Made by a program: the position numbers and the translations under genes. Positions 37,903 through 64,000 of a stretch of DNA of 64,000 bases are shown piece by piece. A model generated the notes under the pieces. The model was not told the DNA's origin. It saw only the letters and a list, made by a program, of their open reading frames with translations, and did no database searches. The stretch lies in assembly GCA_022376465.1 (NCBI GenBank), contig JACDTU010000002.1:310001-374000 (forward strand), given 5' to 3'. The stretch's first letter is position 1. Each line of letters begins with the position of its first letter. The DNA is from Cubamyces lactineus. Taxonomy: Eukaryota; Basidiomycota; Agaricomycetes; Polyporales; Polyporaceae.

Positions 37903-38608
37903 TGTTACGCTCTGTGCTGTAACCCCGAAGTCCGATCCCCGAACCCCCGTACTCCGCTCTTTACCCCGCACTACGTACTCTGCTCCCCCGTACTCCGCTC
38001 TTCCGTACCCCGTACCCCCGACTCCGTTCTCCGTACTCCGCACTTCGTACTCCGTACTTCGGACTTCCCCCGACCCCATGACTTACATGTCTCAGATAAC
38101 CCCTCATGGCGCTACCTACATGAGGCTTTTGCTTACTGAGCTATCTGTGTTATCTTACGCTTGGCAAGTTACTTCGTACTTTCATTCTACTCCTTCCTAT
38201 CACGTACATCTCTTATTGTTTCCACCGGGTTTCTGACTTAGTATAAATACTGCCCCGGAATGTAGTAGCTACTCAGTTCGGAAATCTTGTTAACCTTGTA
38301 CACTCGTCTTTTTGGACTTCTAGTCCGTACTCCGACACTCACCCCCGACCCCCTAGTCCGACCAACCTTCGTTCCCTTCCTACCAAACCCCTTGACCCAA
38401 CCCCGTTCTCAAGTCCGACCTCCGTCCCGTCAAGTCCGTACTCCGTAGTCCGCAAATAGAGGACACCGAGTCGGAACCCGTGCGTTACTAATAGTTTCGC
38501 GAAAGTCCTTACCCCAGTGCTAGTCCGACCTCCGGTCGTACTCCGACCCCGAACTCCGTCCAAGTCCCGACCACTGGAGTTGTACCCCCGGACGGCACGG
38601 TCCTAACA
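37903..38608 (+). repeat. Ty3-B 5' LTR (706 bp)
   Basis: TGTTACGCTC...CCTAACA. It contains nine ACTCCG motifs on the plus strand and none on the minus by my count, a TATA box at 38242 and the predicted start at 38275. Confidence 0.9.
38242..38285 (+). promoter_or_regulatory. Ty3-B LTR core promoter and predicted start
   Basis: TATAAATA (38242-38249) lies 33 nt before AGTTCGGAAAT (38275-38285), the same spacing as in Ty3-A. The second segment is the exact complement of the site just inside the LTR. Confidence 0.6.
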
Positions 38609-38610
38609 GT

Positions 38611-38621
38611 ATTTCCGAACT
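38611..38621 (+). promoter_or_regulatory. self-primer binding site of Ty3-B
   Basis: ATTTCCGAACT lies 2 nt after the LTR end and is perfectly complementary over 11 nt to the predicted 5' end of the element's own RNA. There is no tRNA-type TGG. Confidence 0.65.
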
Positions 38622-38639
38622 CACTGGGTTTCACTCAAT

Positions 38640-40109
38640 ATGTCCACTCGAACCGTAGTCCGCACTCAGACTCAATCTCGCACCCTAGAGCAAGAAGACC
38701 CCGCCGAGAACTGGAGTGGCTGGACAGCTCGCCGAGGCGACTCAGCGACGCAAGAAGAAGCTACTCCGAGCTGCCGCGGGCAGTTCGCTCGAACAATCGT
38801 CGAAGTGTCCTCCGATGGGGATGACGAAGGTGACCCGCCTCAGCCCCTGGTCATCTCTACCGCGACTGCCTCGCAGGTACCCCGAGAGCCATCTCCGGGT
38901 AACCTGTTCTCCATGGGTCAGCCCTCAGGTCCGAGCCGCGGGCCTCTGGGTCCGCCTAGTCCTCCAGGTCCGCCGGGCCCTCCAGGACCGCCAGGTCCTC
39001 CAGACAACGACCCACAAGGGCCTGGAGACGACGACACTAGCTCAAGCTCGGACTCCTCCGACTCCGAAGACCGAGTTCAGTCGCAACTAGCGACCGCGAT
39101 CTCCCTCATCGCACGTACCCTCGAACGTACTACCGCTCCAACTCCGGCGGTTACCCAACCCTCGAACAACGAGCGACACAATGTCCGCGAGCCGGACCAG
39201 TTCGACGGGTCCGACCCCAACAAACTCCGGTCTTTCTTCACGCAGTTGGAACTTGTCTTCAAGGCCCGACCCCGAACCTTCGACTCTGATGAGAAGAAGG
39301 TAACCTACGCCATCTCCTTCCTCAAGGGCACCGCGCTACAATGGTTCGAGCCCTACCTCCTCGAAGGCGACTCGGACAACCCCCCCATCTTCCTCACATC
39401 CTATGACCACTTCCAGGAGGAACTCCGAGTGAACTTCGGTCCTTACGACGCCTCCGGAGCTGCGGAGCATGAGCTGATGAACCTCCGGATGGGCGACAAC
39501 CAGCGGATAGCTAAGTACATCACTCAGTTCACTCGCCTCGCTACTCAAGTCCGCTGGGGTAATGCTTCGCTCCGATACTGGTTCTATGACGGACTTCCGA
39601 ACCGTCTCAAGGACCGCATCTCCGAGGTCGGCAAGCCCGAGACCCTGGTGGCCCTCCGCGACCTTGCGCAGTCGATCGACAACTGCTACTGGGAACGCAA
39701 GGCCGAGGTCTCGCACGAGTCCGGACCTTCCAAGTCCGGCAGCAAGTCGACCTCTGACTCCAAGTCCTCCAACTCCGGCAACAAGTCCGGAGGTAACAAC
39801 TCCGGACAGGCCTCCTCGTCTACCCCGTCCAAGTCCGGCAATTCCGGTACTTCGTCGAAGTCTCCTAAGACTCCGAAGACCCTGGCCAAGACGTACGCCG
39901 ACAAGCTCGGTAAGGACGGAAAGCTCACACCCGAGGAACGTCAACGCTGTTTCGCCAACAATCTCTGTCTCTTCTGCGGTGGAGCTGGTCATACCGCGAG
40001 TGCTTGTCCGAAGAAGACCTCGTCCGCGACCAAGGGTCGCGCCGCTCAGGCCAACCCCGCTCCTGCTGCGCCTGCTCCGGCTGCAGCCCCAAAGGAGACA
40101 AAAAATTAG
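38640..40109 (+). CDS. Ty3-B gag (489 aa)
   Basis: The ATG at 38640 is the first after the primer site. The N-terminal part is Ser/Glu-rich, followed by a collagen-like Gly-Pro-Pro run. Then comes a retrotransposon gag (capsid) domain with ALQWFEPYL and YITQFTRLA, a Ser/Lys/Gly-rich linker and a CCHC knuckle (CLFCGGAGHTASAC). A basic Ala/Pro tail ends it. It assembles the virus-like particle and binds RNA. The frame is intact. Its last codons form the slippery site that leads to pol. Confidence 0.88.
   Translation: MSTRTVVRTQTQSRTLEQEDPAENWSGWTARRGDSATQEEATPSCRGQFARTIVEVSSDGDDEGDPPQPLVISTATASQVPREPSPGNLFSMGQPSGPSRGPLGPPSPPGPPGPPGPPGPPDNDPQGPGDDDTSSSSDSSDSEDRVQSQLATAISLIARTLERTTAPTPAVTQPSNNERHNVREPDQFDGSDPNKLRSFFTQLELVFKARPRTFDSDEKKVTYAISFLKGTALQWFEPYLLEGDSDNPPIFLTSYDHFQEELRVNFGPYDASGAAEHELMNLRMGDNQRIAKYITQFTRLATQVRWGNASLRYWFYDGLPNRLKDRISEVGKPETLVALRDLAQSIDNCYWERKAEVSHESGPSKSGSKSTSDSKSSNSGNKSGGNNSGQASSSTPSKSGNSGTSSKSPKTPKTLAKTYADKLGKDGKLTPEERQRCFANNLCLFCGGAGHTASACPKKTSSATKGRAAQANPAPAAPAPAAAPKETKN
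40100..40106 (+). promoter_or_regulatory. -1 frameshift slippery site of Ty3-B
   Basis: The heptamer A AAA AAT in gag phase is followed at once by the gag stop TAG (40107-40109). A -1 slip continues into pol. The heptamer matches the X XXY YYZ pattern. Confidence 0.65.
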
Positions 40110-43100
40110 TCCGCGGTCCTCCGAACTCCGTACCCCGTGAGGACCGCGTTGACTCCTCCGGTATGGAGATACTCAGGCTCAACGCGTCCGCTCTTTCCGA
40201 CCCCCATGCACTCTTCCTCGACTTGTACTCCGATCCTATCCCAACTCCGTTCCGCGCCCTTATCGACTCCGGTTCCTCCCATTGTTTCATCGACTCCGAT
40301 TTCGCGACTACATATCAACTCCCAACTACCGCCGTAACCCCGCTCCGTCTACAGCTTTTTGACGGTACTTCTAACCACCTGATTACTTCGTTTACCTCAT
40401 TGCCCGTACATTTTCCGTCTGGAGAAGTCCTCAATATAGATTTCTATGTTACTCCGCTCGACAAGTCCGTGTCTGCCGTTCTGGGATACAGCTGGCTCTC
40501 CGCCTACAATCCGTTGATTGACTGGAAGAAGCGCAGCATCCAATTCCGTTCTGCACCCCCGCCGTGTCCTGTTCCTGACACCATGGTACCCCTGCCAGCT
40601 CCGGCTGAGCGTACTCCGTCTACTCCGTCTACTCCGGAACTACCGACTTCTCCTACTCCGACCTCCGTACCCCGGATCTCTCTTGTGAACGCTGCTGCTT
40701 TCGCTCGAGCTTGCAAACTCCCGGGGTCCGCGAGTTATACCCTGAATTTGTCTACTCCGGACTTGGCTATTGCGCGGAGTTCGTCCTTCTCCAACTCTCC
40801 CCCAGACCTCACCGGAGTTCTGGAGGAGTACCATGAGTTTGCGGACGTCTTCAGCAAGACCAAGGCCGACATCCTACCGGAGCATCGCCCCTACGACCTA
40901 AAGATCGACCTGGAAGAAGGGGCTACTCCACCACTCGGACCTATCTACTCCCTCTCAAAACTCGAGCTCGACACGCTTCGGGAGTACATCGACGAGAACC
41001 TCCGATCGGGGTTCATACGTCCGTCCAACTCCCCCTGCGGAGCTCCCGTCCTCTTCGTCAAGAAGAAGGACGGATCTCTTCGCCTTTGCGTGGACTACCG
41101 GGGTTTGAATAAGATCACCCGGAAAGACCGCTACCCCCTTCCTCTTGTCTCGGACTTGCTGGACGCGCCTCGGAAGGCCCAGATCTATACCAAAATTGAC
41201 CTCCGTCACGCCTACAATCTAGTCCGCATAGCTCCCGGAGATGAGTGGAAGACCGCGTTTCGGACCCGCTATGGGTCCTTCGAATGGTTAGTCATGCCTT
41301 TCGGACTTTCTAACGCGCCCGCTGCCTTTCAGCAGTTCGTCAATGACATCTTCGCGGATATGCTCGATGTGTGCGTCATCGTCTACCTGGACGACATCCT
41401 CATCTACTCCGACAACCCCGAGCAACACCGCAAGCACGTCAAAGAGGTACTCCGGCGACTCCGCAAGCACCGGCTTTATGCCCGCGCTGACAAGTGCGAG
41501 TTCCACACCGACTCCGTCGAGTACCTCGGGTACATTCTCTCTCCCACCGGACTTACCATGGCGGAGTCGAAGGTTAAGGCGATCTTGGATTGGCCCGAAC
41601 CCCGGAAGGTCCGCGACATACAGTCGTTCCTGGGGTTCACAAACTTCTATCGACGGTTTATTCCAAACTACTCCGAGATCGTACTACCGCTGACCCGCTT
41701 AACCCGCAAGTCCGTGCCTTGGCACTTCTCCGAGGAATGTCGGAGTTTGTTCAACGCTCTCAAGAAGGCGTTTACGACAGCTCCGGTACTACACCACTGG
41801 ATGCCCGACCGACCCCTCACCGTCGAGACCGACGCCTCGGACTACGCCATCGCCGGCATTCTCTCCCTTACCACCGAGTCCGGTGAACTCCACCCCATTG
41901 CTTTCCACTCCCGCACCTTGACCGGCGCGGAGTTGAACTATGACACTCACGACAAGGAACTCCTCGCGATCTTCGAATGCTTCAAGACCTGGCGGCACTA
42001 CCTCGAAGGTTCGGCAACTCCGATCGACGTTGTCACGGACCACAAGAACTTGGTATACTTCGCGACTACGAAGTGACTAACCTGCCACCAAGCCCGATGG
42101 TCGGAGTTCCTCTCGCAGTTCAACCTCGTAGTCCGGTTCCGGCCAGGTAAGCTTGGAGCGAAGCCCGACGCACTGACATGCCGTTGGGACGTCTACCCAA
42201 AAGAGGGGGGCAGTGACTACTCCGTCGTCGACCCACACAACTACCGACCGGTTTTCACCCAGGAGCAGCTCGCCGCGTCCCTCCAGGCTACCTACCTCTG
42301 ACCCCCCATACTCCGAGCTTCCTTCATCCTCGACTCCGAACAACTCCTCTTGGACATCAAGTCCGCTCAAGCAACCCCGACTCCTGACCCCGAACTATCT
42401 GCCGCACTCAAGCTCGCCTCCGAAGGCAACTCCCGATGGTCCCGAGATGAAGACGGACTACTCCGACTCTCAGGTCGAGTCTATGTCCCGAACTCCGGCG
42501 ACCTCCGCCTTCGTGTACTCCGAGCTTGTCACGATCATCCTACTGCCGGACACTGGGGACAGAACAAGACGCAAGCCCTGGTCCTGCGGGACTACGCCTG
42601 GCCCGGACTTCGACTCTTCGTCCGGGACTACTGTAAGTCCTGTACTACCTGTGCGCGAGCTAAAGTCCCCCGGCATCTTCCCTATGGTACTTTGAAGCAA
42701 CTCCCAATCCCCAAGCGACCCTGGAACTCCATCTCCATGGACCTCATCGAGCAACTCCCGAACTCCGCTGGCTACACCGCGATCCTGGTGGTAGTCGACA
42801 GGCTCACTAAGCAAGGTATATTCATCCCTACCCACGACACGCTTACAGCCTCGGAGCTAGCGGACTTGTTCGTACTCCATGTGTTCTCCAAGCACGGAGT
42901 TCCCTCGCACGTTACCTCCGACCGGGGCTCGGAGTTCGTCTCTCACTTCTTCCGCTCCCTCGGTAAGGCCCTCGACATGCGCCTTCACTTCACCTCCGGT
43001 TACCACCCGGAAGGCGACGGTCAAACCGAGCAGGTTAACCAGACCCTTAAACAGTACCTCCGGATCTACTCGAACTACCAGCAGGACAACTGGTCCCAAC

Positions 43101-43822
43101 TCCTTCCCTTGGTGGAGTTCGCGTACAACAACGCCCCGTCCGCAACTACCGGTATATCCCCGTTCTTCGCGAACAAGGGCTACAACCCCACCATCTCCGT
43201 CTACCCCGAGCGGGACCTCACCTCCGCTCGAGCTCGCGACTACGCTGTCGACCTCGACGAACTTCACACCCAACTCCGACAGCAGATCTCCGAAGCCCAG
43301 GCCCGATACCAAGTACAGGCGGACAAACACCGTCTACCCACGCCGGACTTCAAGGTCGGAGATCAGGTCTATATCCGAGCTCAGCACATCCGGACTACAC
43401 GTCCTTCCAAAAAGTTGTCCGAGAAGTTCTTAGGTCCGTTCACTATCATCGCGCAGGTCGGAACTCACTCCTTCACCCTCCGACTACCGGACTCTATGCG
43501 CGCGGTTCACCCTGTTTTCCATGTCTCACAACTCGAGCCTGCAACTCCGAACACCATCCCCGGCCGTGTCCAAACTCCGCCACCTCCGATCCTGGTGGAC
43601 GGAGAACCGGAGTACGAGATTTCGGAGATACTCGACTCCAAGATTGACTGCTGGCGTCAGAGTTGCCAACTCCTGTACCTAGTCCGATGGGCAGGCTATG
43701 AAGGTACGGATGAAGAAACTTCGTGGATTCTAGCCATGGAGCTTGGACATGCCCAGGAGCTAGTCTCGGACTTCCACGCAGCTTATCTGGACAAGCCCGG
43801 ACCTCTAGCTAGGTTGTCTTGA
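40107..43822 (+). pseudogene. Ty3-B pol: protease, RT, RNase H, integrase, chromodomain
   Basis: It is reached by the -1 slip (the frame is open from 40004). Protease ALIDSGSSHCFID, RT VIVYLDDILIYS, RNase H ETDASDYAIAG. Integrase with HHCC finger (HDHPTAGH, CTTCAR) and catalytic sites in MDLIEQL, TSDRGSEF and GDGQTEQVNQ. The chromodomain is at the end (LVRWAGYEG). Two in-frame TGA codons (42074-42076 between RNase H and its tail, 42299-42301 before integrase) break an otherwise open frame. Nearby CGC codons are also changed to TGC or CAC. Restoring readthrough is not suggested by any signal. It looks like recent CpG damage. Confidence 0.88.
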
Positions 43823-43926
43823 GGTTCACTCACGGAGTTCTCACCAACAGAATTTACTATTCCACTCCACACCCGGACTACAGTTGTCTATCTACGAAGC
43901 CCGAAGTCCGAAGTCCGTAGTCCGTC

Positions 43927-44678
43927 CTACTCCGCCATGTCCATGTCCGCCGGGTCCTCCGGTCCCTTCACCTCCTTTGCACCCTCGCCCTGCTCCTCCT
44001 CCACCTCACCGGACTTGCCCCGCGCGGACTTGTCCGCCAACCCCGTCCCACTCTCCTCCTCCTCCCAGTCCGACCCAGCCACACCCGCCCGCTCCAGCGC
44101 GTCCGCGATCGTGTCCTCCTTGTCCTGTGAGGTGATCTCCAGGATCTCCCGCAGCATAGTACCGAACTCCGTCGCGAGTTCAGACTTGACCGCGTCGCGG
44201 ACGGCCTCGCCGATGGCGGACTTCAGCTCCTTCCGCACGATCTTGGCGATGGCGTCGCCAAGACCCTGGACCTCCTCCCGGATCATCTCCTCCCGCTGCT
44301 CCTCCTCGTCGACCAGGAGGTCGATGACCCGCCCCGCGGTGCGCCGATTGCGCTGCACCGCAACGAGCAGATGCTCGAGCAACTCCCGGTCGGAGAGTCG
44401 CTCCGGGTCGTCGGACCACCGGAGGTCGGACTTCCCAACCTCTGGAAGACCGGAGCTCGCAGACAACCGAGGGCCCGTCGACGAGCCTGCGATGCTCGGG
44501 CCTCGGGCTACGACTGTTCGCGCTGGAGGGTTAATCCCGGGCGGTGCGACGAAGGTCCATCGGACCTCACCTGGCTGTAGCGGCTTCTCCGCTGCCTTCT
44601 CCGCCATCTTCTCCTTCTCCTTTCCCTTGCCCTTCTCCGCCCGCACCTTCTCCGAACTCCGTACTCCGGTGGGCGCGG
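43927..44678 (-). pseudogene. Ty3-B zinc-cluster gene, 3' part (split by Ty3-C)
   Basis: This is the C-terminal part of the gene whose 5' exons lie at 62986-63645. It holds a Lys/Glu-rich start (EKVRAEKGKGKEKEK), a segment with WTFVAPPG, a helical charged region (LLEHLLVAVQRNRR) and an acidic end DMDMAE with stop at 43927. Joined across the insertion the four coding blocks total 1299 nt, exactly 433 codons, so the gene was intact when Ty3-C landed. It lies between pol and the 3' LTR and is transcribed against the element. Confidence 0.7.
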
Positions 44679-45668
44679 TGAAGCGTCTAACCCACCCGTA
44701 AGGGAAGGATACTACTCGGGCCGAGAGCCTTTGTAGGTCGAGGCCTGCTGGCGGGGGAGAGGGGAAAGGACGCGAAGGAGAGGGGAGGTTGGAGTCGGGT
44801 GCCCTGTGACTGGCGCGAACCGTAGCAAAGCCTAGGACCAAAGGGAGTGGGTAGAGAGGGTTGGCTGGCCTTTGCGAAGGACGCGACGCTGGCGAGAGCG
44901 CAGGGAAAGGGTTCGCGGATACACGGGGAAGGAGAAAGGGGGAAGGGGACAAGAGGAGAGGAGCGCGGGCTGTCGATTTCGCAAATGTCGCGGAGTTTCG
45001 CAGGTTTTCGCAACACGCGGTTTCGCAAACTTTTCGCGGGGTCTGTCCTCGTGGCTTCACGCCGTTTCGCAGCTAAGTGGTTTCGCAGATCTTCGCAAGG
45101 TCGTTGCAAGGGTTCGCAGTTCGCAAGGGTTCGCAGTTCGCAGTTCGCAGTTCGCAGTTTCGCAGTTCGCAAGTTCGCAGATTTCGCAAGGTCGTAAATA
45201 TCACAAGTGAGAGACCCTGAGGGTATGGGGGAAGGGCATCTGTGTTGTCTGGCCCTGGGGGCGTGTACTTTACAGAAGGGATCCTGTGCTACAGTCCATC
45301 AGGTCTTGGCAAGACCGTGTGGCCTCGTCGCGAGGCCGGCTCGCCGTGCGGCCTCTCCGCGGCCTCCTATAGGCTCTGATCTACCTCTCGCACCATATGG
45401 CGCCATTCCGCGTCGTTTCCGTCGGCCGATACGGTCCGTAGCCGGGCACAACACGGCCGCGAGGGCGAGGGGAGGGGAGGAGAGACCCACAGGAATCCAA
45501 GCGTGCAGGTGCGAGTGCTCCAGGTATGCGCGAAGGGTCCTGCGGACGTGCGAAGCATCGCGCGAGGTCGCGACTGGCAAAGGAATAGATGGAACCGCTG
45601 CAGAAAAGAGAGGGGGCACCGCAGCGATAGCCCCTTGCTCTGGGTCTGGACCGGCACCATGCGCATCA
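44679..45668 (-). repeat. Ty3-C 3' LTR (990 bp)
   Basis: The plus-strand text starts TGAAGCGTC and ends GCGCATCA. The block 44960-45190 contains about seventeen TTCGCA hexamers, some in direct tandem. Confidence 0.9.
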
Positions 45669-45756
45669 TCTCCCCCTCACTGAGATCTCGACTGTCCCCA
45701 GTCGGTGCGACTATGGGGATTGGATCTGTAGGGGTATATAGCCGGCCCCGTTCTCC

Positions 45757-46385
45757 ATGAGCCCCTGGACTGTGGCGCACTCGATGATGTCCTTGCGGGA
45801 TCTGGAGGTGATCTGCGAAGAACTCCTGCGCACAGTGCGCGAACCAGCCCATACACAAGTCCACCGCTGCCTGGTTGCCCTAGAGGTGATGCGCGAAGAC
45901 TTCCTCCGCAATAGCGATGACTGGCGAACCCGTAGGGAGGAGTGGCAGGCTACCCTTGAGTCGTTCCTTTCCGCCTTTGTATGCTGCCCGCAGCTTTCGC
46001 GTGTGTGCTAGACCTGCTCATACTCGCTTCGCAGGAGACGTTCGCCACCACTGCCGCGAGAAGCGAGGAACTACGGCCTGTCCTTGACCGGTTAGGGCGG
46101 GCCCTCGCTGGGCCTGTCATCGAGCCTTCCTTTGCTCGTGCAGCGCGCCGGCACCTCTACCAGATTGCACGCGGGACTTGTGCAACCAGGACAAACCTGC
46201 TTCGCGCGCGGCTAGACTTGCTTTCGCAGCGGGCTGAAGCCATCCAGGATGTGATCCTCCGCCTCCGTCCTACACCCGCGGGAGACGTGATACGGGTGCG
46301 CGAAGTATTGGAAGGCGTGTCGCGGCTAGAGCGGGAGTGGCTGGAAGAGTCCCTGCGAGGTCTAGACTTGCTGCAGCGCGAGTAA
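45757..46385 (+). CDS. Ty3-C opposite-strand gene 1 (190 aa)
   Basis: Two exons, 45757-45978 and 46035-46385, with GTATGC/CAG borders, join in phase (573 nt). The product is almost wholly helical and charged (Arg, Glu, Leu), with no Cys cluster or membrane span, and ends LDLLQRE. A TATATAG at 45735-45741 precedes it. Because the box is so close, the start may be the ATG at 45784 instead. Family unknown. It could be a coiled-coil partner of gene 2 or of the zinc-cluster protein. The direction is opposite to gag-pol. Confidence 0.55.
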
Positions 46386-46577
46386 AGGGGGAAAGGTGGT
46401 AGGGGATGAGAGGAGCGAACGTCCACGTGTAGGAGGAGCGTGGTGAGCCTCGCGGTAGTTTAGACCGGAGAACTGGGCCTGCGGCGAATACCAGACGAGT
46501 TCATCGATGAGATGCGAGTGATATCTGGTCGTATAAATGCGCGTCCCCAGCGCCCTGATCTCGCGAGCACTCGCGAC

Positions 46578-47218
46578 ATGAACACTCTCCCTGGAATCGC
46601 TGATGCGGTCGCAGGCCTCCGTCTGGAGACTGAGCAGCTCGCGCGCGATCAACTCGAAGCCCAAGTTGCCGAACTGGAGTTCATGCATGAGTCAGAAGGC
46701 TCCGCGCTTGAAGACTGGGTCGCTGCGGTGGAGGAATGTGTCTTTCGCTTGGTATGACCCCCTGTGTATGTCGCAAACCGAGGCCACTAAAACATATCCT
46801 GTAGCGCGCCTTCTTGTCCATCTGCCACGGATCTGGGGGGGTAGAGCCTATATTGCGACGCATCGAAGCTGCCCTTCGCCACGAGAGCCTTGCGCCGGAG
46901 CTACTTGCCAAGTTCCGCGACGGCGCCTTCCTCGCGCAGCAAGATATCGCGCGACTCCAGTACCGCAGCGCGAGGGCTCGCCTAGCCAAGTATCGCGACG
47001 AACTCCAGAGTATGAACCAGGTGCTCTACCGCGCTGGACCTGAACGGTTCATGTCCCTCGCGCGGGCCCAAGACATCATCGTCGCGACCCACCGTCTCTC
47101 GCGCGAAGTGGACTGCGAGCTCGCAGCCTGCGAATCGGACACTGGTGGCGAAGAGAGTACACGCGCACGCCAGAGGCTTCAGGGACGTCTTGCAGACAGG
47201 GGCAACGCTGTGGAGTAG
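46578..47218 (+). CDS. Ty3-C opposite-strand gene 2 (181 aa)
   Basis: Exons 46578-46751 and 46847-47218 join in phase (546 nt, GTATGA/GAG border with AG acceptor). TATAAAT lies at 46533-46539, 39-45 nt before the ATG. The product is highly helical, rich in Glu, Ala, Arg and Leu, with a heptad-like N-terminus (LRLETEQLARDQLEAQVAEL) that suggests a coiled coil. No enzymatic motif. Size and composition resemble gene 1, so the two may be related. Function unknown. Confidence 0.55.
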
Positions 47219-47695
47219 AGCGGCGGAATGGTAGGACTGTGGCCTGGCAGAATAGAGTTTGAGGATGTGAGCTTCTTCCAATTCGCGCGAAAATCCCTGT
47301 TCTTCGCTCGCATGGCCCTCCTCGCGAAGGGACCTTGAATATGTCCCACTGCTAGAACTCCGCCACCATCGGCCAACCCTGCTCCCCAGTCTGCATTGTT
47401 CGCAACGCCAAGGGGGATCGCTCGCGGTACCCCTTTTGTGAGAGGCGCACCGCCACCAGAAGACAATAGAGTTTGCGCGGGTAGCGCCCGTCGCTAGAAA
47501 GGTGTGTGTCAAAGAGAAGCTCGCACAAAGCGCTCGCAGAGTTCGCCGGAGTTGGATTCAGGGTCGCCTAGGCGTGCGAAGGTGCCCGCGGGGAAGACAT
47601 AAAGGTAGGAGGGGGCTGGCGAAGTCCCGCTGCGCTTCCCCCTTGTTCGCACTTTCTTGGGTACTCCCTTCTTGCTCGTCTTGTCCCTCGCCGCT
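47219..47695. other. spacer and 5' region of Ty3-C gene 3
   Basis: No open frame of its own. It contains many CGCGA/TCGCG motifs and a weak TATA-like ACATAAAG near 47608, about 90 nt before the next ATG. Confidence 0.4.
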
Positions 47696-49801: not shown

Positions 49802-50313
49802 TGGGTGCTCCATCTTCGCATCGCGGACTTGTAGATATTGGTCGCGTACGCAGTTTCTTGGACTCTTGTGCAGCCCCTGCGGCGCTTGGCGCATGGAGAG
49901 GTATGTCGCGAGTACGGTAGTCATCGCCGCGGGTCTCGGTACGATATGCAAGTGGCCCAGTTGATTGTCGCGGACTTGTACACCTGGTTCTTAGGCCCGC
50001 CCTCCTCCTCCTCTGTTTTGCGTTTGGACCTGTTGATAGTTAGTGCCTCTCGCCTGTAGGTATCGTCGCCGCTGTCCAAGGTATATAGAGAAAACTCAAT
50101 AGAAGAAAATTGTACAGCTCGCGAGCCGGTGTGTGTTCAGTATGTGGGCTGCAAGAAGGGGAAGAGGGAGCGTGTGGTTGGTTTCGCGCGAAACTCATAA
50201 GTTCTCAAAGGAATGACTGAAAACGTGCACAGATGAGGTGATGCGATGAAAAGGGATGGGATTTGAGATAGGGAACAATATGTGTACATGTGCGAATATT
50301 GGTAGGAGGGTCG
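49802..50313. other. gap between gene 3 and the end of Ty3-C pol
   Basis: About 500 bp where the two convergent transcription units end. Nothing coding is supported. Confidence 0.45.
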
Positions 50314-54280: not shown

Positions 54281-56444
54281 AGTGGTCACCACGGATTGTT
54301 AACAACTGCCCACGTAGGTGGGGAAATTCTCGTGGAAGACCTGCCAACTCGATATACAAATACAAATGGCCCACCTCATTGAGAATCAATGACACTATGG
54401 ATTTTCAATGGGAGTGGGGCTTTTGTAGTAGTGTATTAACAATTGTGCCACATTTGTAAATGAGATGCATGAATAATGCCCCCACGTATGATACACAATA
54501 GCTGGATCGTACATGGACGTGGGTGGTTTGTATATCCCTGCAATACACAATCCACCCACGTCCAATGTATAATAGCTGAATTGTAGATGGACGTGGGTGA
54601 TTTGTAGATGCCTCTGATATACAATCTGCCCACGTCTGATGTACAAAAGCTGGATTGTAGATGGACGTGGGCGGTTTGTGGATGTCAATGGCTGGATTGT
54701 AGATGGACGTGGGTGATTTGTACATGCCTCTGATATACAATCTGCCCACGTTTAGCTTGATTGTAGATGGACGTGGCAGTTTTGTACATGCCTCTGATAT
54801 ACAATCAGCCCACGTCTGATATACAATAGCTGGATTGTATATGAACGTGGCAGTATTGTATATGAACGTGGCAGTATTGTATATGAACGTGGCAGTTTTG
54901 TATATGAACGTGGCTGGATTGTAGATGAACGTGGGTGATTTGTACATGCCTCTGATATACAATCTGCCCACGTTTAGCTTGATTGTAGATGGACGTGGCA
55001 GTTTTGTAAATGCCTCTGATATACAATCAGCCCACGTCTGATATACAATCAGCCCACGTCTGATATACAATCAGCCCACGTCTGATATACAATAGCTGGA
55101 TTGTATATGAACGTGGCAGTTTTGTATATGAACGTGGCAGTATTGTATATGCCTCTGATATACAATCTGCCCACATTTAACTTGATTGTATATGGACGTG
55201 GCAGTTTTGTACATGCCTCTGATATACAATCAGCCCACGTCTGATCTACAATAGCTGAATTGTATATGAACGTGGCAGTTTTGTACATGCCTCTGATATA
55301 CAATCTGCCCACATTTAGCTGGATTGTATATGGACATGGCCACTTTGTAGATGCCACTTTTGTATTACAACTACTATCTGGGCACTTTCTAGCGCTTTTT
55401 GGGCTCCTATTTGGGCGCTTCTTCAACGCTTTTGGGCGCTTTTTTGGCTGTTATCTGGGCGCTTTTTTGGCTGTTATCTGGGCGCTTTTTGGGTTCCTAT
55501 TTGGGCGCTTTTTGGGCGCTTTTTTGCGTCCAAATAGGGCAGGCATATTCAACACCTTCCTGCCCTCCTCTTCTGGGGCCCTATTAGGGCACCCTGTTGG
55601 GCCAAAAATATACATAGCATGTATGTATATGCCATAGTACATCTCTGTGTGCATAGTGATGCAATAGTGCAGGGAAAATAACCAAAAAATGCGACCCTAG
55701 GCCAAGGGCCACCAGGAGGGGACCACTGCAGGGTGGCTGGCCTGGCTTCCTCTGGTCCAATTTCTGTGAGTAATATATCATTGGAGAGGTGCTTGAAAGG
55801 GCTTTTTAACGCATATTTTTGCAGGAGGAACCATGCAAAATTGGTAGAAATATGGATCATCGCATTTTCGCCAAAAATGGCCATTTTGTTTCCTTGATTG
55901 CTCAGCACACAGGTGTCCCCTCATGTTTTCCTTGGTACCGTTCAATTCGCGTTTTCAAGGGCTTTCTAACAGTAGTACATACATGGCATTCTGACCACAT
56001 GCATTGACATCCTTCTCCTGCCCCTCCCTCACTTTACCACCTCATAGCTCCTGCAGTTCTTTGTCTTTCTCTGTGAAGTCTTTTGATATCTGTAGTATAC
56101 ATACAGAACTATGTATTTATTGCTTTTTACGCCCTAATATGGCCTATCCCCAATGGAATCCATCTAGGTGCATTTTCGCACTTTTCAGATTCTCCCCTCC
56201 ATATCTCTGCACCCAGAGCAGCTATTGCCTTTGTTCTTTTCGCATTTTGTGCCTGGACATTGCTACTACATGTCTGTAGAAGCTCATTTTTATCGAATGC
56301 AGCGATCAGAATTGAGCTCCTTATCAGCTGTGGCAGGCAGATCCTGTTTTGGCTTACATTCAGGGCATTATTTTCTGATCAGATAGCACATTCATATTCT
56401 ACTCGTCTATAGCTACCTGTAACAACAAGAATCATGGGATTTGG
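54281..56444 (+). repeat. left arm of P copy 2
   Basis: 2164 bp, inverted partner of 56592-58849. It shares with that partner several base changes that copy 1 does not have. Confidence 0.85.
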
Positions 56445-56591
56445 TGAAGAATTGAGTGAGCTACAGTGAATGGACCTCCTGGACACCCAAAGTTGCAGTG
56501 TGTGCAGTTGCACTGCTCCGGAAATGCATGCAGTGCATTGCTGAACAGGCAGCATTTGGTGCCTCTGGGCCATATCTCTGCAACCACTCCT

Positions 56592-58849
56592 CCAAATCCC
56601 ATGATTCTTGTTGTTACAGGTAGCTATAGACGAGTAGAATATGAATGTGCTATCTGATCAGAAAATAATGCCCTGAATGTAAGCCAAAACAGGATCTGCC
56701 TGCCACAGCTGATAAGGAGCTCAATTCTGATCGCTGCATTCGATAAAAATGAGCTTCTACAGACATGTAGTAGCAATGTCCAGGCACAAAATGCGAAAAG
56801 AACAAAGGCAATAGCTGCTATGGGTGCAGAGATATGGAGGGGAGAATCTGAAAAGTGCGAAAATGCACCTAGATGGATTCCATTGGGGATAGGCCATATT
56901 AGGGCGTAAAAAGCAATAAATACATAGTTCTGTATGTATACTACAGATATCAAAAGACTTCACAGAGAAAGACAAAGAACTGCAGGAGCTATGAGGTGGT
57001 AAAGTGAGGGAGGGGCAGGAGAAGGATGTCAATGCATGTGGTCAGAATGCCATGTATGTACTACTGTTAGAAAGCCCTTGAAAACGCGAATTGAACGGTA
57101 CCAAGGAAAACATGAGGGGACACCTGTGTGCTGAGCAATCAAGGAAACAAAATGGCCATTTTTGGCGAAAATGCGATGATCCATATTTCTACCAATTTTG
57201 CATGGTTCCTCCTGCAAAAATATGCGTTAAAAAGCCCTTTCAAGCACCTCTCCAATGATATATTACTCACAGAAATTGGACCAGAGGAAGCCAGGCCAGC
57301 CACCCTGCAGTGGTCCCCTCCTGGTGGCCCTTGGCCTAGGGTCGCATTTTTTGGTTATTTTCCCTGCACTATTGCATCACTATGCACACAGAGATGTACT
57401 ATGGCATATACATACATGCTATGTATATTTTTGGCCCAACAGGGTGCCCTAATAGGGCCCCAGAAGAGGAGGGCAGGAAGGTGTTGAATATGCCTGCCCT
57501 ATTTGGACGCAAAAAAGCGCCCAAAAAGCGCCCAAATAGGAACCCAAAAAGCGCCCAGATAACAGCCAAAAAAGCGCCCAGATAACAGCCAAAAAAGCGC
57601 CCAAAAGCGTTGAAGAAGCGCCCAAATAGGAGCCCAAAAAGCGCTAGAAAGTGCCCAGATAGTAGTTGTAATACAAAAGTGGCATCTACAAAGTGGCCAT
57701 GTCCATATACAATCCAGCTAAATGTGGGCAGATTGTATATCAGAGGCATGTACAAAACTGCCACGTTCATATACAATTCAGCTATTGTAGATCAGATGTG
57801 GGCTGATTGTATATCAGAGGCATGTACAAAACTGCCACGTCCATATACAATCAAGTTAAATGTGGGCAGATTGTATATCAGAGGCATATACAATACTGCC
57901 ACGTTCATATACAAAACTGCCACGTTCATATACAATCCAGCTATTGTATATCAGACGTGGGCTGATTGTATATCAGACGTGGGCTGATTGTATATCAGAC
58001 GTGGGCTGATTGTATATCAGAGGCATTTACAAAACTGCCACGTCCATCTACAATCAAGCTATTGACATCTACAAACTGCCCACGTCCATCTACAATCCAG
58101 CTTTTGTACATCAGACGTGGGCAGATTGTATATCAGAGGCATCTACAAATCACCCACGTCCATCTACAATCCAGCTATTGACATCTACAAACTGCCCACG
58201 TCCATCTACAATCCAGCTTTTGTACATCAGACGTGGGCAGATTGTATATCAGAGGCATCTACAAATCACCCACGTCCATCTACAATTCAGCTATTGTACA
58301 TTGGACGTGGGTGGATTGTGTATCACAGGGATATACAAACCGCCCACGTCCATGTACGATCCAGCTATTGTACATCAGACGTGGGCAGATTGTATATCAG
58401 AGGCATGTACAAAGCACCCACGTCCATCTACAATCCAGCTATTGACATCTACAAACTGCCCACGTCCATCTACAATCCAGCTTTTGTACATCAGACATGG
58501 GCAGATTGTATATCAGAGGCATCTACAAATCACCCACGTCCATCTACAATTCAGCTATTATACATTGGACGTGGGTGGATTGTGTATTGCAGGGATATGC
58601 AAACCACCCACGTCCATGTACGATCCAGCTATTGTGTATCATACGTGGGGGCATTATTCATGCATCTCATTTACAAATGTGGCACAATTGTTAATACACT
58701 ACTACAAAAGCCCCACTCCCATTGAAAATCCATAGTGTCATTGATTCTCAATGAGGTGGGCCATTTGTATTTGTATATCGAGTTGGCAGGTCTTCCACGA
58801 GAATTTCCCCACCTACGTGGGCAGTTGTTAACAATCCGTGGTGACCACG
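56592..58849 (-). repeat. right arm of P copy 2
   Basis: 2258 bp. I noticed only isolated single-base differences from the left arm in the unique part (near 56819 and 57796). The outer tandem block is longer. Confidence 0.85.
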
Positions 58850-59019
58850 ACTGCACAATCTCAGGGAGTTGATCGCAGGCAGATAGATACAGAGCAGGAA
58901 TGGGAACCGAGTTGTCGCAAATTTTGGAGTACGCGCAGATGCGCGGAACACCTCCCTCTTCGCTGATGACAAGTGCGACTTCGCCATCATCACCTTCAAA
59001 GAGAGAGTCTAGCTGGGGT

Positions 59020-61428
59020 TCAGGCGTCCTGTTCGGCTCGAAACCGCGCGCGCCCGCGAGGCACGGTAGGGATCGTCGCGACTTGACCAGTGTTGGGGCA
59101 CTGAATGGTGATAGTCTGGTCCTCATTCTCGAAGTTCTTGACGACGCTCTTCGTCAGCACATCAAATGGCCTGCCTAGGAGGATGTCGTAAGCTGCGCTG
59201 CGAATGACGTGTACTTGAAGGTAGAGGACGATGTCGGCGACGCGAAAGGGTACATTGCGAACTAGGCCCAGGGACTTGTCAGTCTCGCCATTCGCTGAGA
59301 CCATATTGAGGCGAATGCTAGGGTCATAGGCGAGCGAAAGCGCGTGGCAGACGTGTTCGGACATCGCGATAATCATGCACCCGGGGTCCACAATCGCCTC
59401 GACGTATTCCTTGTTATCAACCAACCCAACAATGGAGCGAAGAGCGTGCGACTCCTTAGCGACTGAGAGCTCTGTAGCTTCGCGCGAAGGCGCGAGGTCG
59501 CGAAGGTAGACCTCATAGGGATCTGGGACGATGACGCCATTGGGCTCCAAGGGTTTACCGCTGCAACAGACCTCGCTAGCCACGTCGTCCACCCCTTCGT
59601 CAGCTGCCGCGAAAGCGACTGTGCGCGGCTCAGTCGCGACGCGCCTCGGGGTGATCTTCTCGCGGAACTGCGAGCGAAGCTCTGGCGAAATTGACAGCAG
59701 TTCCTCCATGGAGACGGTGAGATAGGGGGTGGTCATAGACCGCTGGAAGAGACTCTTCACCACCTCATCTTGCTGGATTGGGGCGCGAGTGCGGTATGCG
59801 GGTTCGCGATCTCCGCTCTTGCCCCGCGGTGCAGGTGCGCCGAAGTTGCGGACTCGAGGGGGGGCGTATGTCGCGTCACGCGCCTTCGCGAAGGGATGCT
59901 CTGGCTCCGTAGACTGTTCCTGAGTTGCCGGTCGTGGAGTGGGTGGTCTGACTGCCAGGCGGGGAACCTTGGGGGCCTCGCGTACTACGGTATCCTTGCT
60001 AGTGCTCGCCTCCCCTGTGACTGGTGCCTGCTGGGGTTCGTCGCGAGCCCGCGAATGATCCCGCGTCGCCATGGGGGGCTCCTGACTCCTGGTGTCGCGG
60101 CGGAACGTGAGCGGTAGATGAGGTGGAGCCTGTCGATCTGAGGAACCTCTGGGTTCTTGCGAGCGGCCTCTAGGCTGCGCAGGTGGCGAGCTCTGTCGCG
60201 AGCGGGGTTTACGAGCTTGCGGCACTTCTACACCATCGAACCGCATTCGCCTGCCCTGCTGCAACGCGAGGATCTCGTGCTGGAGCTGGGTGATCCGATC
60301 CTCTGCACTGAGCTGGTAGGTGCTAAAGCTAGGCTCGTCGGATGCGATCGAGAGGACCATCTGTGCCGCTGGGGGTGGCCCGTTCGCATTGTTCCGCCTG
60401 TGCCACTCGTACAGCCGGTCGCGCATGGTGATGCCGTCAAAGCCTAGGAGCTGGCGAGGAATGAAGTTTCCATTAGGCAGGACGACGCGACCGTCTTGGT
60501 TCCGCATGCAGCGCCCTGCGCAGACATCCTCTTCCACGAATGGGCAGTTTCGCAACTGGCAGCCTGGGTTCCTGCAGTAGTGGCAGAAGTTTCCACCTTG
60601 GGGAGGGTAGCGCTGCTCCTGTGGCGCGAGGTTTGGCTGATAGCGAGGGGCACCAGGTGGCGGCCCTGCGAAACGGTTCGCTGTGTTGACTGGCGTGTTC
60701 GCGGGTCCCTCGCCGACTGTCTGCGCCAACAGCCGCAAGATTGGGGCCAGGTCTTCCATCTTTACCGCTGCTGGTGCGGACTGACCCACCGGGTTCGCGC
60801 CTTGGGATGGAACCTTTCCTCCGACCTTAGTGCCATGCAGGAGGAAGCTTGCTGCCTCATAGACCTTGTCGACATCGTATGGGTCATCGGGGTAGTGATC
60901 CGGGTCCTTTAGCTCGATCCTCTTCTGGATGCGCTCCCAGAGGGGTTCTGCGATGCCGCGTACAAAGAGGCGCGAGCGTTCCGATTCAGAGCATCGCCCC
61001 TGCGAGATCAGGTAGGAGGTCATGGTGTAGAAGTCGCGGTAGTAACTGGAGAGCTCGGCAACGTTGGCGATGGGAGTTTTCGCGCGCTGCGAAACAAGCG
61101 ACTCTACTTCCGCCATGGAGAACTTGCGATCGTCGCCCGCGCCCGGATAGAGCGTGATGATAGCTGCCTTGAACTGCTGATAGGTCCGGTCCTGGTTGTC
61201 ATAGGCCGGAAGGCTCTCGCACAGCTCGGCGACCTCGATTGGTAGGTAGCGGACAACCCAGACCTTCTTTTGCTGCTCATCCTGGACCCCGCTACGCTCG
61301 AAGAGTGCCTCGATGTCTAGAAAGAAGCGACGGAGGCTCCGCGGGTTGGTGGGGTCGAAGGTGGGTGCAGTGGCGTGTCCACGCGGGGGCATTGGGGGCT
61401 TTGTGTTGTGGTCTGCCATCGCCTCCAC
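59020..61428 (-). CDS. Ty3-C gag with protease (802 aa)
   Basis: The ATG is at 61428 after a 560-nt leader. The capsid-like region (FFLDIEALFERSG, YYRDFYTMTSYL) is followed by a Cys cluster CHYCRNPGCQLRNC, where the usual His of CCHC is Cys. A long Pro/Arg-rich disordered part leads to a retropepsin-like protease at the C-terminus (IVDPGCMIIAMSE, YDILLGRPFD). The catalytic triplet reads DPG instead of DSG/DTG. The frame is intact. It makes the particle and processes it. Pol needs a +1 shift near the stop (GCC TGA A). Confidence 0.8.
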   Translation of the reverse strand: MEAMADHNTKPPMPPRGHATAPTFDPTNPRSLRRFFLDIEALFERSGVQDEQQKKVWVVRYLPIEVAELCESLPAYDNQDRTYQQFKAAIITLYPGAGDDRKFSMAEVESLVSQRAKTPIANVAELSSYYRDFYTMTSYLISQGRCSESERSRLFVRGIAEPLWERIQKRIELKDPDHYPDDPYDVDKVYEAASFLLHGTKVGGKVPSQGANPVGQSAPAAVKMEDLAPILRLLAQTVGEGPANTPVNTANRFAGPPPGAPRYQPNLAPQEQRYPPQGGNFCHYCRNPGCQLRNCPFVEEDVCAGRCMRNQDGRVVLPNGNFIPRQLLGFDGITMRDRLYEWHRRNNANGPPPAAQMVLSIASDEPSFSTYQLSAEDRITQLQHEILALQQGRRMRFDGVEVPQARKPRSRQSSPPAQPRGRSQEPRGSSDRQAPPHLPLTFRRDTRSQEPPMATRDHSRARDEPQQAPVTGEASTSKDTVVREAPKVPRLAVRPPTPRPATQEQSTEPEHPFAKARDATYAPPRVRNFGAPAPRGKSGDREPAYRTRAPIQQDEVVKSLFQRSMTTPYLTVSMEELLSISPELRSQFREKITPRRVATEPRTVAFAAADEGVDDVASEVCCSGKPLEPNGVIVPDPYEVYLRDLAPSREATELSVAKESHALRSIVGLVDNKEYVEAIVDPGCMIIAMSEHVCHALSLAYDPSIRLNMVSANGETDKSLGLVRNVPFRVADIVLYLQVHVIRSAAYDILLGRPFDVLTKSVVKNFENEDQTITIQCPNTGQVATIPTVPRGRARFRAEQDA

Positions 61429-61991
61429 TGGGTCGGGCTCGCGAATGGAGTGGAAGACTTGCGAGATGTCGGGGGAGGAGTCAGGAAGGTTGACCAGAAG
61501 GCTCGCAGCGGATGTGGAGACTCCGCCTAAGCTCCCTTCGTGCGAGGTTTCGACAGGAGAGGTATCAGAGAGAGATGTGAGGGGGCTTCCAAAGGGTGAG
61601 GAGTAGCGAACTAGGGAATCCTCCGCAGGTGCGAAGGAGATGTTTGGTGATGGTGGTCGCGAGGTGCTTATGGGGTTCGCAATGATTGCAAGGGCGGTTT
61701 CGCGGATCCAAGAAGCACTCGCAGGTTCGCTGGTGAGCCTTTCGATCCCTCTCTCAAGAAGGAGGCAGATGGGATCAAGTAGGGCGGCAAGGGAGTCGCT
61801 GTTGAGGTGCTGGTTGGCCTGCCTAACTAGACTTGTGAATCGCGCGACAAGTAGCTCAGAGGCAAGGGTATAAGGTCCTGGATCAGGGCTTGTTGTTCGC
61901 GAAATTGCGAACAGATACGGCGCGGAGGGCCGTCAACAGGAGGAAACCGACTGTGTGATCTATACACACCCCCCTGCGGTGGTCACCAAAA
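61429..61991 (-). other. Ty3-C 5' leader
   Basis: Untranslated region between the LTR and gag. TGGTGACCACCGC (complement of 61976-61988) lies 3 nt inside the LTR and starts with the TGG expected for a tRNA primer. I could not assign the tRNA. Confidence 0.5.
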
Positions 61992-62981
61992 TGAAACGTC
62001 TAACCCACCCGTAAGGGAAGGATACTACTCGGGCCGAGAGCCTTTGTAGGTCGAGGCCTGCTGGCGGGGGAGAGGGGAAAGGACACGAAGGAGAGGGGAG
62101 GTTGGAGTCGGGTGCCCTGTGACTGGCGCGAACCGTAGCAAAGCCTAGGACCAAAGGGAGTGGGTAGAGAGGGTTGGCTGGCCTTTGCGAAGGACGCGAC
62201 GCTGGCGAGAGCGCAGGGAAAGGGTTCGCGGATACATGGGGAAGGAGAAAGGGGGAAGGGGACAAGAGGAGAGGAGCGCGGGCTGTCGATTTCGCAAATG
62301 TCGCGGAGTTTCGCAGGTTTTCGCAACACGCGGTTTCGCAAACTTTTCGCGGGGTCTGTCCTCGTGGCTTCACGCCGTTTCGCAGCTAAGTGGTTTCGCA
62401 GATCTTCGCAAGGTCGTTGCAAGGGTTCGCAGTTCGCAAGGGTTCGCAGTTCGCAGTTCGCAGTTCGCAGTTTCGCAGTTCGCAAGTTCGCAGATTTCGC
62501 AAGGTCGTAAATATCACAAGTGAGAGACCCTGAGGGTATGGGGGAAGGGCATCTGTGTTGTCTGGCCCTGGGGGCGTGTACTTTACAGAAGGGATCCTGT
62601 GCTACAGTCCATCAGGTCTTGGCAAGACCGTGTGGCCTCGTCGCGAGGCCGGCTCGCCGTGCGGCCTCTCCGCGGCCTCCTATAGGCTCTGATCTACCTC
62701 TCGCACCATATGGCGCCATTCCGCGTCGTTTCCGTCGGCCGATACGGTCCGTAGCCGGGCACAACACGGCCGCGAGGGCGAGGGGAGGGGAGGAGAGACC
62801 CACAGGAGTCCAAGCGTGCAGGTGCGAGTGCTCCAGGTATGCGCGAAGGGTCCTGCGGACGTGCGAAGCATCGCGCGAGGTCGCGACTGGCAAAGGAATA
62901 GATGGAACCACTGCAGAAAAGAGAGGGGGCACCGCAGCGATAGCCCCTTGCTCTGGGTCTGGACCAGCACCATGCGCATCA
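61992..62981 (-). repeat. Ty3-C 5' LTR (990 bp)
   Basis: Partner of 44679-45668 with the same length and about six substitutions. The next four bases are the duplication GCGG. Confidence 0.9.
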
Positions 62982-62985
62982 GCGG

Positions 62986-63645
62986 GGGTCTCGAACCCGT
63001 TGTCATCGTCGACGATGGCGGCGGACTTGACCTTCTTGCGCTGTGGGCTTGGGGCCTCCTCCTTGCGCGCGATTCGGGCTTGGATGTCCGCGGGAAGTCC
63101 GCAAGCCCCGACGCACGTGCGCGACCGGGCCTTCTGGCACTGGACGCAGCTCGACGTCCTCTTCCCCGCGCGGAACCGGCACGTGATCTGTTTCGCCGCA
63201 CACCGGTCGCACTTCGCCCTGTAAACCCCGTGTTAGCCGTACTCCGTACTCCGTCCTCCGGACGGACTTACCGAGGGACCAACAACTCCGCATCGTCCTC
63301 CTCCGACTCCGACTCCGGCTCGTCGTCCTCCGCGGGACGCTTGCTTCCCCGCGCGGAAGCCCCGGCCTTCGCGAGGGCAGCCTGGCGGATCAGCGCTGCT
63401 GCCTTCTGTGCGGCCTCGTACTCCGCGCGCTTCTTCTCCTCCCGCGCTCGCTCCTCCTCCCGCGCTCGCTCTTCCTCCGCCCTTCGCGCCCTGTAAACCA
63501 CCGGTTAGCCCGAACTCCGTACCCCGAACTCCGCCAACTCCGGTACTTACGCCTCCGCTGCCACGGCCTCCTCCGCCGCTGCCTTCATCCGGAGCTGCGC
63601 AAGGTGGGCCTCCAAGGCCTGGATGTTGTCGAGGGTGCTGGACAT
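62986..63645 (-). pseudogene. Ty3-B zinc-cluster gene, 5' part (split by Ty3-C)
   Basis: Exons 63645-63551, 63490-63272 and 63218-62986, with GTAAGT donors and ACAG acceptors. TATATAAG (63715-63708) lies upstream. A helical Ala/Glu-rich start and an acidic block precede a cysteine cluster CX2CX6CX10CX2CX7C (CDRCAAKQITC, CVQCQKARSRTC). This is the spacing of fungal Zn2Cys6 binuclear clusters, which bind CGG triplets. A basic stretch follows, and the frame is then cut by Ty3-C at GCGG. Joined with 44678-43927 it gives 432 aa. The gene runs against gag-pol and probably encodes a nuclear DNA-binding protein. Confidence 0.7.
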
Positions 63646-63852
63646 GGTGTTGCTGGTGGTGGTAGAGGACAGAGAGCGAGGAAGAACTGGCTAAGTCTCA
63701 TCCCCGTCTTATATACACCTTTCTTCATCGATCCTGACCCTGCCCCGATTCTTGATCTCCGTTCCCTGGACTTATCGGATTACCTATTTTGGACAGACTT
63801 CCATTTCCCTTCACTATAGGCCCTCAAGGGTTCGGGCCTAGGGGGGAGGCAC

Positions 63853-64000
63853 TGTTACGCTCTGTGCTGTAACCCCGAAGTCCGATCCCCGAACCCCCGT
63901 ACTCCGCTCTTTACCCCGCACTACGTACTCTGCTCCCCCGTACTCCGCTCTTCCGTACCCCGTACCCCCGACTCCGTTCTCCGTACTCCGCACTTCGGAC
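63853..64000 (+). repeat. start of the Ty3-B 3' LTR
   Basis: 148 visible bases equal the start of the 5' LTR at 37903, except that the last visible part lacks a 14-base unit containing TACTCCGTACTTCG. The rest lies outside the window. Confidence 0.88.

Follow-up and report, generated by a model that had tools for sequence, protein, structure and literature searches.

Why should a retrotransposon encode, against its own gag and pol, a zinc-cluster-like protein, and at the same time be filled with copies of one short DNA word? The question is raised by a 64,000-nucleotide stretch of Cubamyces lactineus DNA (the window; contig C12:310001-374000 of a 36.3-Mb assembly), in which a sequence-only reading had described a long terminal repeat (LTR) element, Ty3-B, with an opposite-strand gene and a saturation with ACTCCG (= CGGAGT), and had proposed that the one serves to recognise the other. 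The window holds two instances of such a gene and a private word, one element lying within the other. The best explanation for them would be self-recognition, with each element encoding a DNA-binding protein that recognises its own copies; we put its probability at roughly 0.55.

A spliced gene on the opposite strand of Ty3-B

Ty3-B starts with a 706-bp 5' LTR (37903-38608, + strand), followed by a gag open reading frame (ORF; 38607-40109, +; Retrotrans_gag, 1.7e-13; Ty3_capsid, 2.5e-9) and by pol (39914-43822 overall), which a stop interrupts in the window copy. The first open part of pol (39914-42076, +) contains protease, RVT_1 (6.3e-40) and RNase H, and the second (42302-43822, +) contains the integrase domains H2C2 and rve, SH3_Tf2-1, and a chromodomain under Pfam's cut-off. 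The LTRs, Ty3_capsid, RVT_1, RT_RNaseH, Integrase_H2C2 and rve, in the order reverse transcriptase (RT)-RNase H-integrase, identify a Ty3/gypsy element. Positions 37903-64000 had been taken as a single element, which proved wrong: a nested element, element C, lies inside Ty3-B, which is composed of 37903-44678 and 62982-64000 and continues beyond the window. Its 3' LTR (63853-64000, +) runs past the window end and is 96% identical to the 5' LTR.

The insertion of element C has split the opposite-strand gene of the window copy in two. On the minus strand, a TATA box (63704-63719, TATATAAG) precedes exon 1 (63551-63645, ATG at 63645), intron 1 (63550-63491), exon 2 (63272-63490), intron 2 (63271-63219) and exon 3, whose 5' part (62982-63218) and 3' part (43927-44678, stop at 43927) flank element C; the product ends in an acidic C-terminus. 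The TATA box, splicing and cysteine cluster attributed to this gene are all present. Other Ty3-B copies in the genome have an open gene, and one related copy with a longer open pol and a broken gag, L069, carries it whole, with TATATAAG at 7565, the ATG at 7495, two introns (60 and 53 bases) that bear GTAAGT and CTAAC signals, and a product of 426 amino acids (aa). In many copies the gene lies between pol and the 3' LTR, antisense to gag-pol, which is the position of the aORF-3R class. The zinc exon has 57 matching rows genome-wide, a few of which are pieces of one copy.

Exon 3 could be aligned in full from 28 of the 33 loci examined, the other five (L009, L012, L015, L017 and L022) being dropped as incomplete or late in starting. 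The frame is kept in 26 of the 28, with an early stop in L034 and a frameshift in L070, and the six cysteines are retained in 27. Ten representatives gave 45 pairs, 42 with a synonymous divergence (dS) above 0.02 and 38 with dS above 0.1; the ratio of nonsynonymous to synonymous divergence (dN/dS) is 0.07-0.16 in all 38, and 0.19-0.30 in the four closer pairs (dS 0.02-0.1). Differences at codon positions 1, 2 and 3 number 44, 32 and 244. When seven copies were compared in every frame, the gene frame gave a dN/dS of 0.12 and the other five 0.20-4.14, four of them 1.5-4.1. The value of 0.20 belongs to one frame on the gag-pol strand and arises because its third positions coincide with those of the gene; given that this frame is open in L069, the ratio alone cannot exclude it. 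The opposite-strand reading is preferred because of the introns, the conserved cysteines and the database homologues. The latter number 14, from four named Trametes or Cubamyces hosts and one further source, and eight of the 14 match a six-cysteine pattern of this type; these two genera of white-rot polypores are the source of the closest named database proteins. Cubamyces sp. BRFM 1775, Trametes sanguinea, T. cinnabarina and T. cubensis are among the hosts with homologous genes (P0002-P0015). Two scans of viral contigs found no relatives. The opposite-strand gene of Ty3-B is thus real, spliced and strongly constrained by purifying selection, its structure and the selection upon it both being directly established.

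Ty3-B has moved recently, since exon 3 in 13 other loci is 99.6-100% identical to that of L069, and the two LTRs of L069 are 99.6% identical. Two loci at first seemed to be more distant: L070 (59% identity) as a diverged gene, which was rejected as a frameshifted copy, and L072 (RT row 75%) as a sister family, which was rejected because its DNA is 94-98% identical. The frame breaks in otherwise similar copies (L069 gag, L070, L072) may be sequencing error or decay. Immediately upstream in the window, an inverted fragment (35141-37104, +) represents another copy of the LTR-gene end of Ty3-B, now decayed, with an LTR piece, a TATA box (35666-35681) and the opposite-strand gene (35740-37104) bearing an internal stop.

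The protein carries the cluster CX2CX6CX10CX2CX7C (63113-63211, -), identically spaced in other copies, and then a basic stretch, PQRKKVK, and the acidic tail; the N-terminus is probably charged and helix-prone. Zn2Cys6 domains (PF00172) follow the pattern CX2CX6CX5-12CX2CX6-8C, which the Ty3-B spacing fits. No Pfam zinc family was matched up to an E value of 10 by the Ty3-B cysteine-cluster exon, by P0002 or P0010, or by exons 2, 3 and 4 of the element C gene. In an AlphaFold2 (AF2) model of the Ty3-B protein each CxxC carries a short helix, and a long helix is predicted over exon-3 residues 176-276, with a confidence score (pLDDT) mostly above 80. Gal4 and Leu3 are the top two matches of this model in a Foldseek search of the Protein Data Bank, both weak (E 0.99 and 3.8).

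A private word beyond coding constraint

ACTCCG occurs 74 times in the whole window and CGGAGT 32 times, ACTCCG being concentrated in 37903-44678 and past 62982. The former interval holds 48 ACTCCG and 10 CGGAGT, whereas 5.5 ACTCCG are expected under a first-order and 14.1 under a second-order Markov model. The local counts reported for the window copy were exact: nine in the 706-bp LTR, four in 40201-40320 (at 40227, 40244, 40266 and 40293) and four in 40561-40680 (at 40613, 40622, 40631 and 40655). ACTCCG is a real word, although the true unit is wider, namely [AT]A[CG]TCCG (WASTCCG = CGGA[C/G]TW). The top heptamers in Ty3-B are TACTCCG, CGGACTT, AACTCCG and AAGTCCG, with TAGTCCG within the first ten. 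WASTCCG reaches 13.1/kb in the window copy (89 sites versus 5.8±2.2 in 200 dinucleotide shuffles) and 13.8/kb in L069 (115 versus 7.7±2.9), compared with about 0.9/kb in shuffled sequence, a saturation stronger than the one first claimed. In L069 a second set of words, ACCCCG and AACCCC, is enriched, perhaps as degenerate forms of WASTCCG.

The saturation does not follow from the encoded proteins. When synonymous codons were permuted with the protein and the codon usage fixed (2000 shuffles), pol was found to contain 49 WASTCCG on both strands versus 8.7±2.5; ACTCCG (27 versus 8.2) and CGGAGT (12 versus 1.8) were each reached by 0 of the 2000 shuffles, and the antisense form CGGASTW stands at 20 versus 2.7. 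Gag has 12 WASTCCG versus 3.3 on both strands, and the coding sequence of the opposite-strand gene, where the word had also been reported, 12 versus 3.2. In the pol of L069, ACTCCG falls into phases 0, 1 and 2 in the numbers 10, 11 and 6. The original argument that codon usage or a protein repeat cannot be the source is thus upheld, both being rejected by the codon shuffles and by the sites in all three phases. In a scan of k-mers against codon shuffles, ACTCCG comes first among 6-mers in pol, as it does over the whole element.

Within the LTRs the words form arrays. The 5' LTR of the window copy has 15 WASTCCG on the element strand and one on the other, and 11-17 on the element strand were counted in 30 of the 30 Ty3-B LTR loci read, of 40 places listed. 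The statement that all copies lie on one strand is correct for ACTCCG in the LTR (9/0) and gag (8/0) of the window copy; it fails for pol, which is enriched on both strands, and for most other LTR copies read, which carry one CGGAGT. The commonest same-strand spacings of WASTCCG are 14, 27, 9, 15, 43, 7 and 18 (7 to 4 cases each). Among opposite-strand pairs no spacing stands out, none being seen more than twice, and a Gal4-like palindrome with a fixed dimer spacing was rejected on this ground.

Tandem arrays and spacings of 7, 9, 12 and 14 bp are common, as would be expected if a 7- or 12-bp unit had slipped in the LTR, or if a bias of mutation or of reverse transcription had spread the word without any function. 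Such neutral dynamics are improbable in view of the single sites scattered through gag and pol. In pol the word occupies either strand and every phase, and the frame of L069 is still open, although a slippage event there would change the encoded protein. Moreover, four further Ty3 families of this genome lack such a bias, and the words of Ty3-B and element C differ. Upkeep of the sites was assessed against control heptamers with a terminal CG in comparisons with three other copies: WASTCCG is conserved at 76/87 sites versus 579/788 controls (p 0.004), 88/98 versus 704/863 (p 0.049), and 77/91 versus 602/793 (p 0.067). This is only suggestive of somewhat better conservation, and in the LTR alone WASTCCG is no different from the control heptamers.

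A second gene and a second word in the nested element C

Element C (44679-62981, sense strand -) is 18.3 kb long, has 990-bp LTRs that are 99.4% identical (44679-45668 and 61992-62981, both -), and is inserted in the opposite-strand gene of Ty3-B; it is itself interrupted at 54279-58853 and lacks the Ty3-B word. It contains a pol ORF (50379-54278, -; 1299 aa; RNase H, integrase) and a gag-protease ORF (59020-61932, -; 970 aa). The LTRs, and RNase H ahead of integrase, place it in Ty3/gypsy, RVT_1 itself being without a reported match. Element C stood out when every 6-mer and 7-mer of a number of ORFs was scored against codon shuffles, to see whether private words are usual: TTCGCA/TGCGAA is the first 6-mer in its pol (z 5.2) and TTCGCA the first over the whole element, with GCGAAA first in gag-protease (4.6). 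The order of discovery was that the word was noted, a gene was predicted between pol and the 3' LTR, and only then was the translation seen. A gene does lie there (47696-49801, +; exons 47696-47836, 47893-48456, 48510-49007 and 49061-49801; 647 aa), and its product carries the cluster CX2CX4CX8CX2CX6C (48510-48593, +), whose first half, CX2CX4C, misfits the PF00172 pattern.

The word of element C, TTCGC[A/G] (TTCGCR), has a density of 9.8/kb versus 1.4 in shuffles. The LTR at 44679-45668 carries 17 TTCGCA on the + strand and two on the other, at spacings mostly of 7-10 and often 7, and the other LTR also carries 17; pol has 33 TTCGCR versus 11.1 codon-shuffled, and gag-protease 25 versus 8.8. 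The word contains no CGG, and CGG is at most a putative recognition unit of the Ty3-B protein. No homology between the Ty3-B and element C proteins was found by hhalign, nor between the two elements as DNA. Saturation beyond coding constraint with a private word is thus established in two independent cases.

These counts bear on the proposal that the word works at the RNA level, helping to package, stabilise or export the genomic RNA, and that the cysteine cluster is an RNA-binding module. The sense-only ACTCCG in the LTR and gag of the window copy would suit it; the excess of antisense CGGASTW in Ty3-B pol, and the balanced strands of TTCGCR in element C coding DNA (16/17 in pol, 14/11 in gag-protease), leave it very improbable, the least probable of the alternatives considered here.

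The element C gene has five genomic matches in two subgroups (96-100% and 69-70%), a sixth row (E 0.18) being noise. The C' gene, 70% identical, lies at C2:1422224 and C12:2835783, and TTCGCA arrays flank it at C2:1418635-1418856 and 1431942-1432163. One database homologue of the protein was found, from Trametes cubensis (P0008); its first CxxC reads CxxY, so either this homologue has decayed or six cysteines are not a strict requirement of the cluster.

Specificity was assessed in four Ty3 families of the same genome with RT 50-57% identical to that of Ty3-B (A with L074, L073, L075 and L076), in a piece of host DNA (L077), and in window positions 1-14000. A and L074 were at first taken as two families, which was rejected, as they are 97.7% identical over 7.7 kb. 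Both words are at or near shuffle level throughout this set, with two small departures: five WASTCCG versus 1.7 in the pol of L075, and, in the insertion inside element C, six TTCGCR versus 1.6. The absence is reciprocal, with one WASTCCG versus 1.8 in element C pol and nine TTCGCR versus 5.7 in Ty3-B pol (codon shuffles). When k-mers were scored under an order-2 model, the highest-ranking 6-mer reached 10.9 in Ty3-B and 10.0 in element C, compared with 3.6-4.6 in the other families, 5.4 in L077 (CACCGC) and 6.5 in window 1-14000 (a simple repeat, CGACGA). GAGACGG in the pol of L073 (9 versus 1.9 codon-shuffled) was set aside as a private word, being limited to one strand and to coding DNA. 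A genome-wide sequence bias is rejected by the four families and the host DNA, and the comparison with shuffled controls, other families and host DNA that the sequence-only reading had proposed finds the word far above controls and private to Ty3-B.

Genome-wide, two Ty3-B words stand 7 bases apart 378 times, versus 91 for the reversed pattern; among the pairs listed, at least 10 lie away from known Ty3-B copies (for example C1:1166160, C2:877971 and C4:359423). Paired element C words number 1020 versus 70 reversed, and among those listed many lie in C-like LTRs or flank the C' gene, with others scattered.

CGG-reading Zn2Cys6 factors of the host are common in fungi. A host DNA-binding or silencing factor might therefore read the Ty3-B word while the zinc-cluster gene serves another job, the more so as protein-word binding is itself inferred. 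This is a rather unlikely account: two elements carry different genes and different words, neither word marks the four families that yielded no such gene, and an element should tend to lose the target of a silencing factor, not to accumulate it. The sample is small, however, and this counts against self-recognition: two of two gene-bearing families have a private word versus none of four others, and the opposite-strand Cys6 pattern, which was found nowhere in the control families, L077 or window 1-14000, was sought in L073, L075 and L076 in partial sequences in which no LTR pair was found. Counting four control families and not five leaves the odds for self-recognition unchanged, as these draw chiefly on the codon shuffles and on the reciprocal enrichment.

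Several further features lie close by. Opposite element C pol, 45960-47218 (+) holds two or three more open stretches rich in Arg, Glu and Leu, possibly a second opposite-strand gene. A C-like LTR derivative occupies 31383-32794 (18 TTCGCA and three TGCGAA within 31301-33000); 27 rows match only part 1-571 of the element C LTR, many with 600-990 further on, and some of these partial LTRs are paired about 6 kb apart, as candidate non-autonomous elements sharing the word of element C. The interruption of element C (54279-58853) and 25941-30181 are two related, AT-richer insertions of large inverted repeats, with arms of 1.5-1.7 kb that are 99-100% complementary, a 137-bp loop, and internal repeats of 74, 116 and 180 bp. 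A 554-aa open frame (5957-7621, -) without a Pfam match has five CGGAGT (6594-7540), WASTCCG over 1-14000 being at background, and 14367-16496 (-) encodes a Plavaka transposase (Pfam E 3.8e-118).

Proposed self-recognition and the systems it resembles

Self-recognition would be the best explanation because a Cys6 protein and a private saturating word are paired twice, with unrelated proteins and different words. In the mechanism that we propose, Ty3-B, a Ty3/gypsy LTR retrotransposon, adds to gag and pol a third gene, which has a promoter of its own and lies antisense to them, ahead of the 3' LTR. The product looks nuclear, with a charged N-terminus prone to form helices, a zinc cluster of the Gal4 type, a basic stretch, a long helix through which it could dimerise and an acidic tail, and would bind the heptamer WA[C/G]TCCG, which the element would have accumulated over its full length, including synonymous positions of gag and pol. 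Many protein molecules could thereby load on each copy, and on copies of the Ty3-B family only. Element C would follow the same scheme with its unrelated Cys6 protein and TTCGC[A/G]. We infer the binding, its target and any effect on silencing from these sequence features.

Loading on the LTR arrays and the body would most likely raise or protect expression of the element, whether through activation or through anti-silencing, although the sign may instead be that of autoregulation; the output of self-recognition may be anti-silencing, activation or autorepression. Anti-silencing as its purpose, which was part of the original suggestion, is plausible, though less likely than not. An ordinary autoregulator (an activator or repressor, or a copy-number control) acting via the LTR arrays, with the words in gag and pol as by-products or decoys, is unlikely, if less so than the host-factor account: dense arrays in every Ty3-B LTR read and in that of element C, adjacent to the promoter, are the classical arrangement for it, yet gag, pol and the Ty3-B gene are enriched beyond the codon shuffle, and by-product sites are not expected at synonymous positions and on both strands.

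A general class may exist, which we advance tentatively and at somewhat less than even odds: fungal LTR retroelements whose opposite-strand genes encode unrelated zinc-cluster proteins, every one of them having co-evolved with a private word of 6-7 bp that fills LTRs and coding DNA, as a self-versus-other address system. A private word readable from DNA gives each antisense gene a directly testable target. If the reading is true, sequence-specific self-recognition would extend to retroelements and to fungi, natural orthogonal pairs of DNA-binding proteins and words would be available, and the coding sequence of an element could be bent at synonymous sites to hold binding sites.

Among known proteins, the fungal Zn2Cys6 factors Gal4, Leu3 and Ppr1 resemble that of Ty3-B in the spacing of its cysteines, the modelled helix for each CxxC and the CGG-containing word; here, however, there is no Pfam match, the proteins are retroelement-encoded, and element C differs in both its spacing and its word. 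LTR retrotransposons with antisense genes have been described from plants and from Botrytis, and the plant papers, in the passages cited, call the function of these genes unknown (PMC7264820, PMC11963269). According to the same passages, Retand, Grande and RIRE2 have an antisense ORF between pol and the 3' LTR, that of Grande with its own promoter and nuclear localisation, and that of Retand with a predicted DNA-binding domain, in a region often with family-specific tandem repeats (PMC7264820, PMC11963269). Retand differs in having TRP28 instead of a zinc cluster, and these passages draw no link from the protein to an element-wide word. The brtn gene of Botrytis Boty-like elements is likewise an extra antisense gene in a fungal Gypsy-type element, compared here by its mention elsewhere (Zhao 2011, as mentioned in PMC7264820, PMC8365987). 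TET/JBP genes of fungal DNA transposons are, in the part of the account cited, also transposon-borne and thought to escape silencing, but they encode an enzyme and belong to DNA transposons (PMC12730594). The paper listings searched, most of them read as listings, hold no recognisable account joining a zinc-cluster or sequence-specific protein to the antisense gene of a fungal LTR element, which is not proof of absence.

The closest parallel, already drawn by the sequence-only reading, is with VANC of the Arabidopsis VANDAL elements, which are Mutator-like DNA transposons; VANC binds its word and brings about a loss of DNA methylation. The logic of the parallel, a family-specific word at high density, stands, while its detail does not, as gag and pol are saturated here and the element class differs. 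As far as the cited passages go, the likeness covers an element-encoded protein, a family-specific dense short word and tandem arrays in one orientation (PMC5735166, PMC10398659), and words that differ between families, here Ty3-B and element C (n=2). The VANC words are described there as lying mainly in the non-coding DNA of VANDAL elements (PMC5735166), whereas the present words occupy coding DNA too, in fungal LTR retroelements with an opposite-strand zinc-cluster protein. The system is like VANC in its logic, yet it is no VANC: the class of element, the protein and the placement of the sites all differ.

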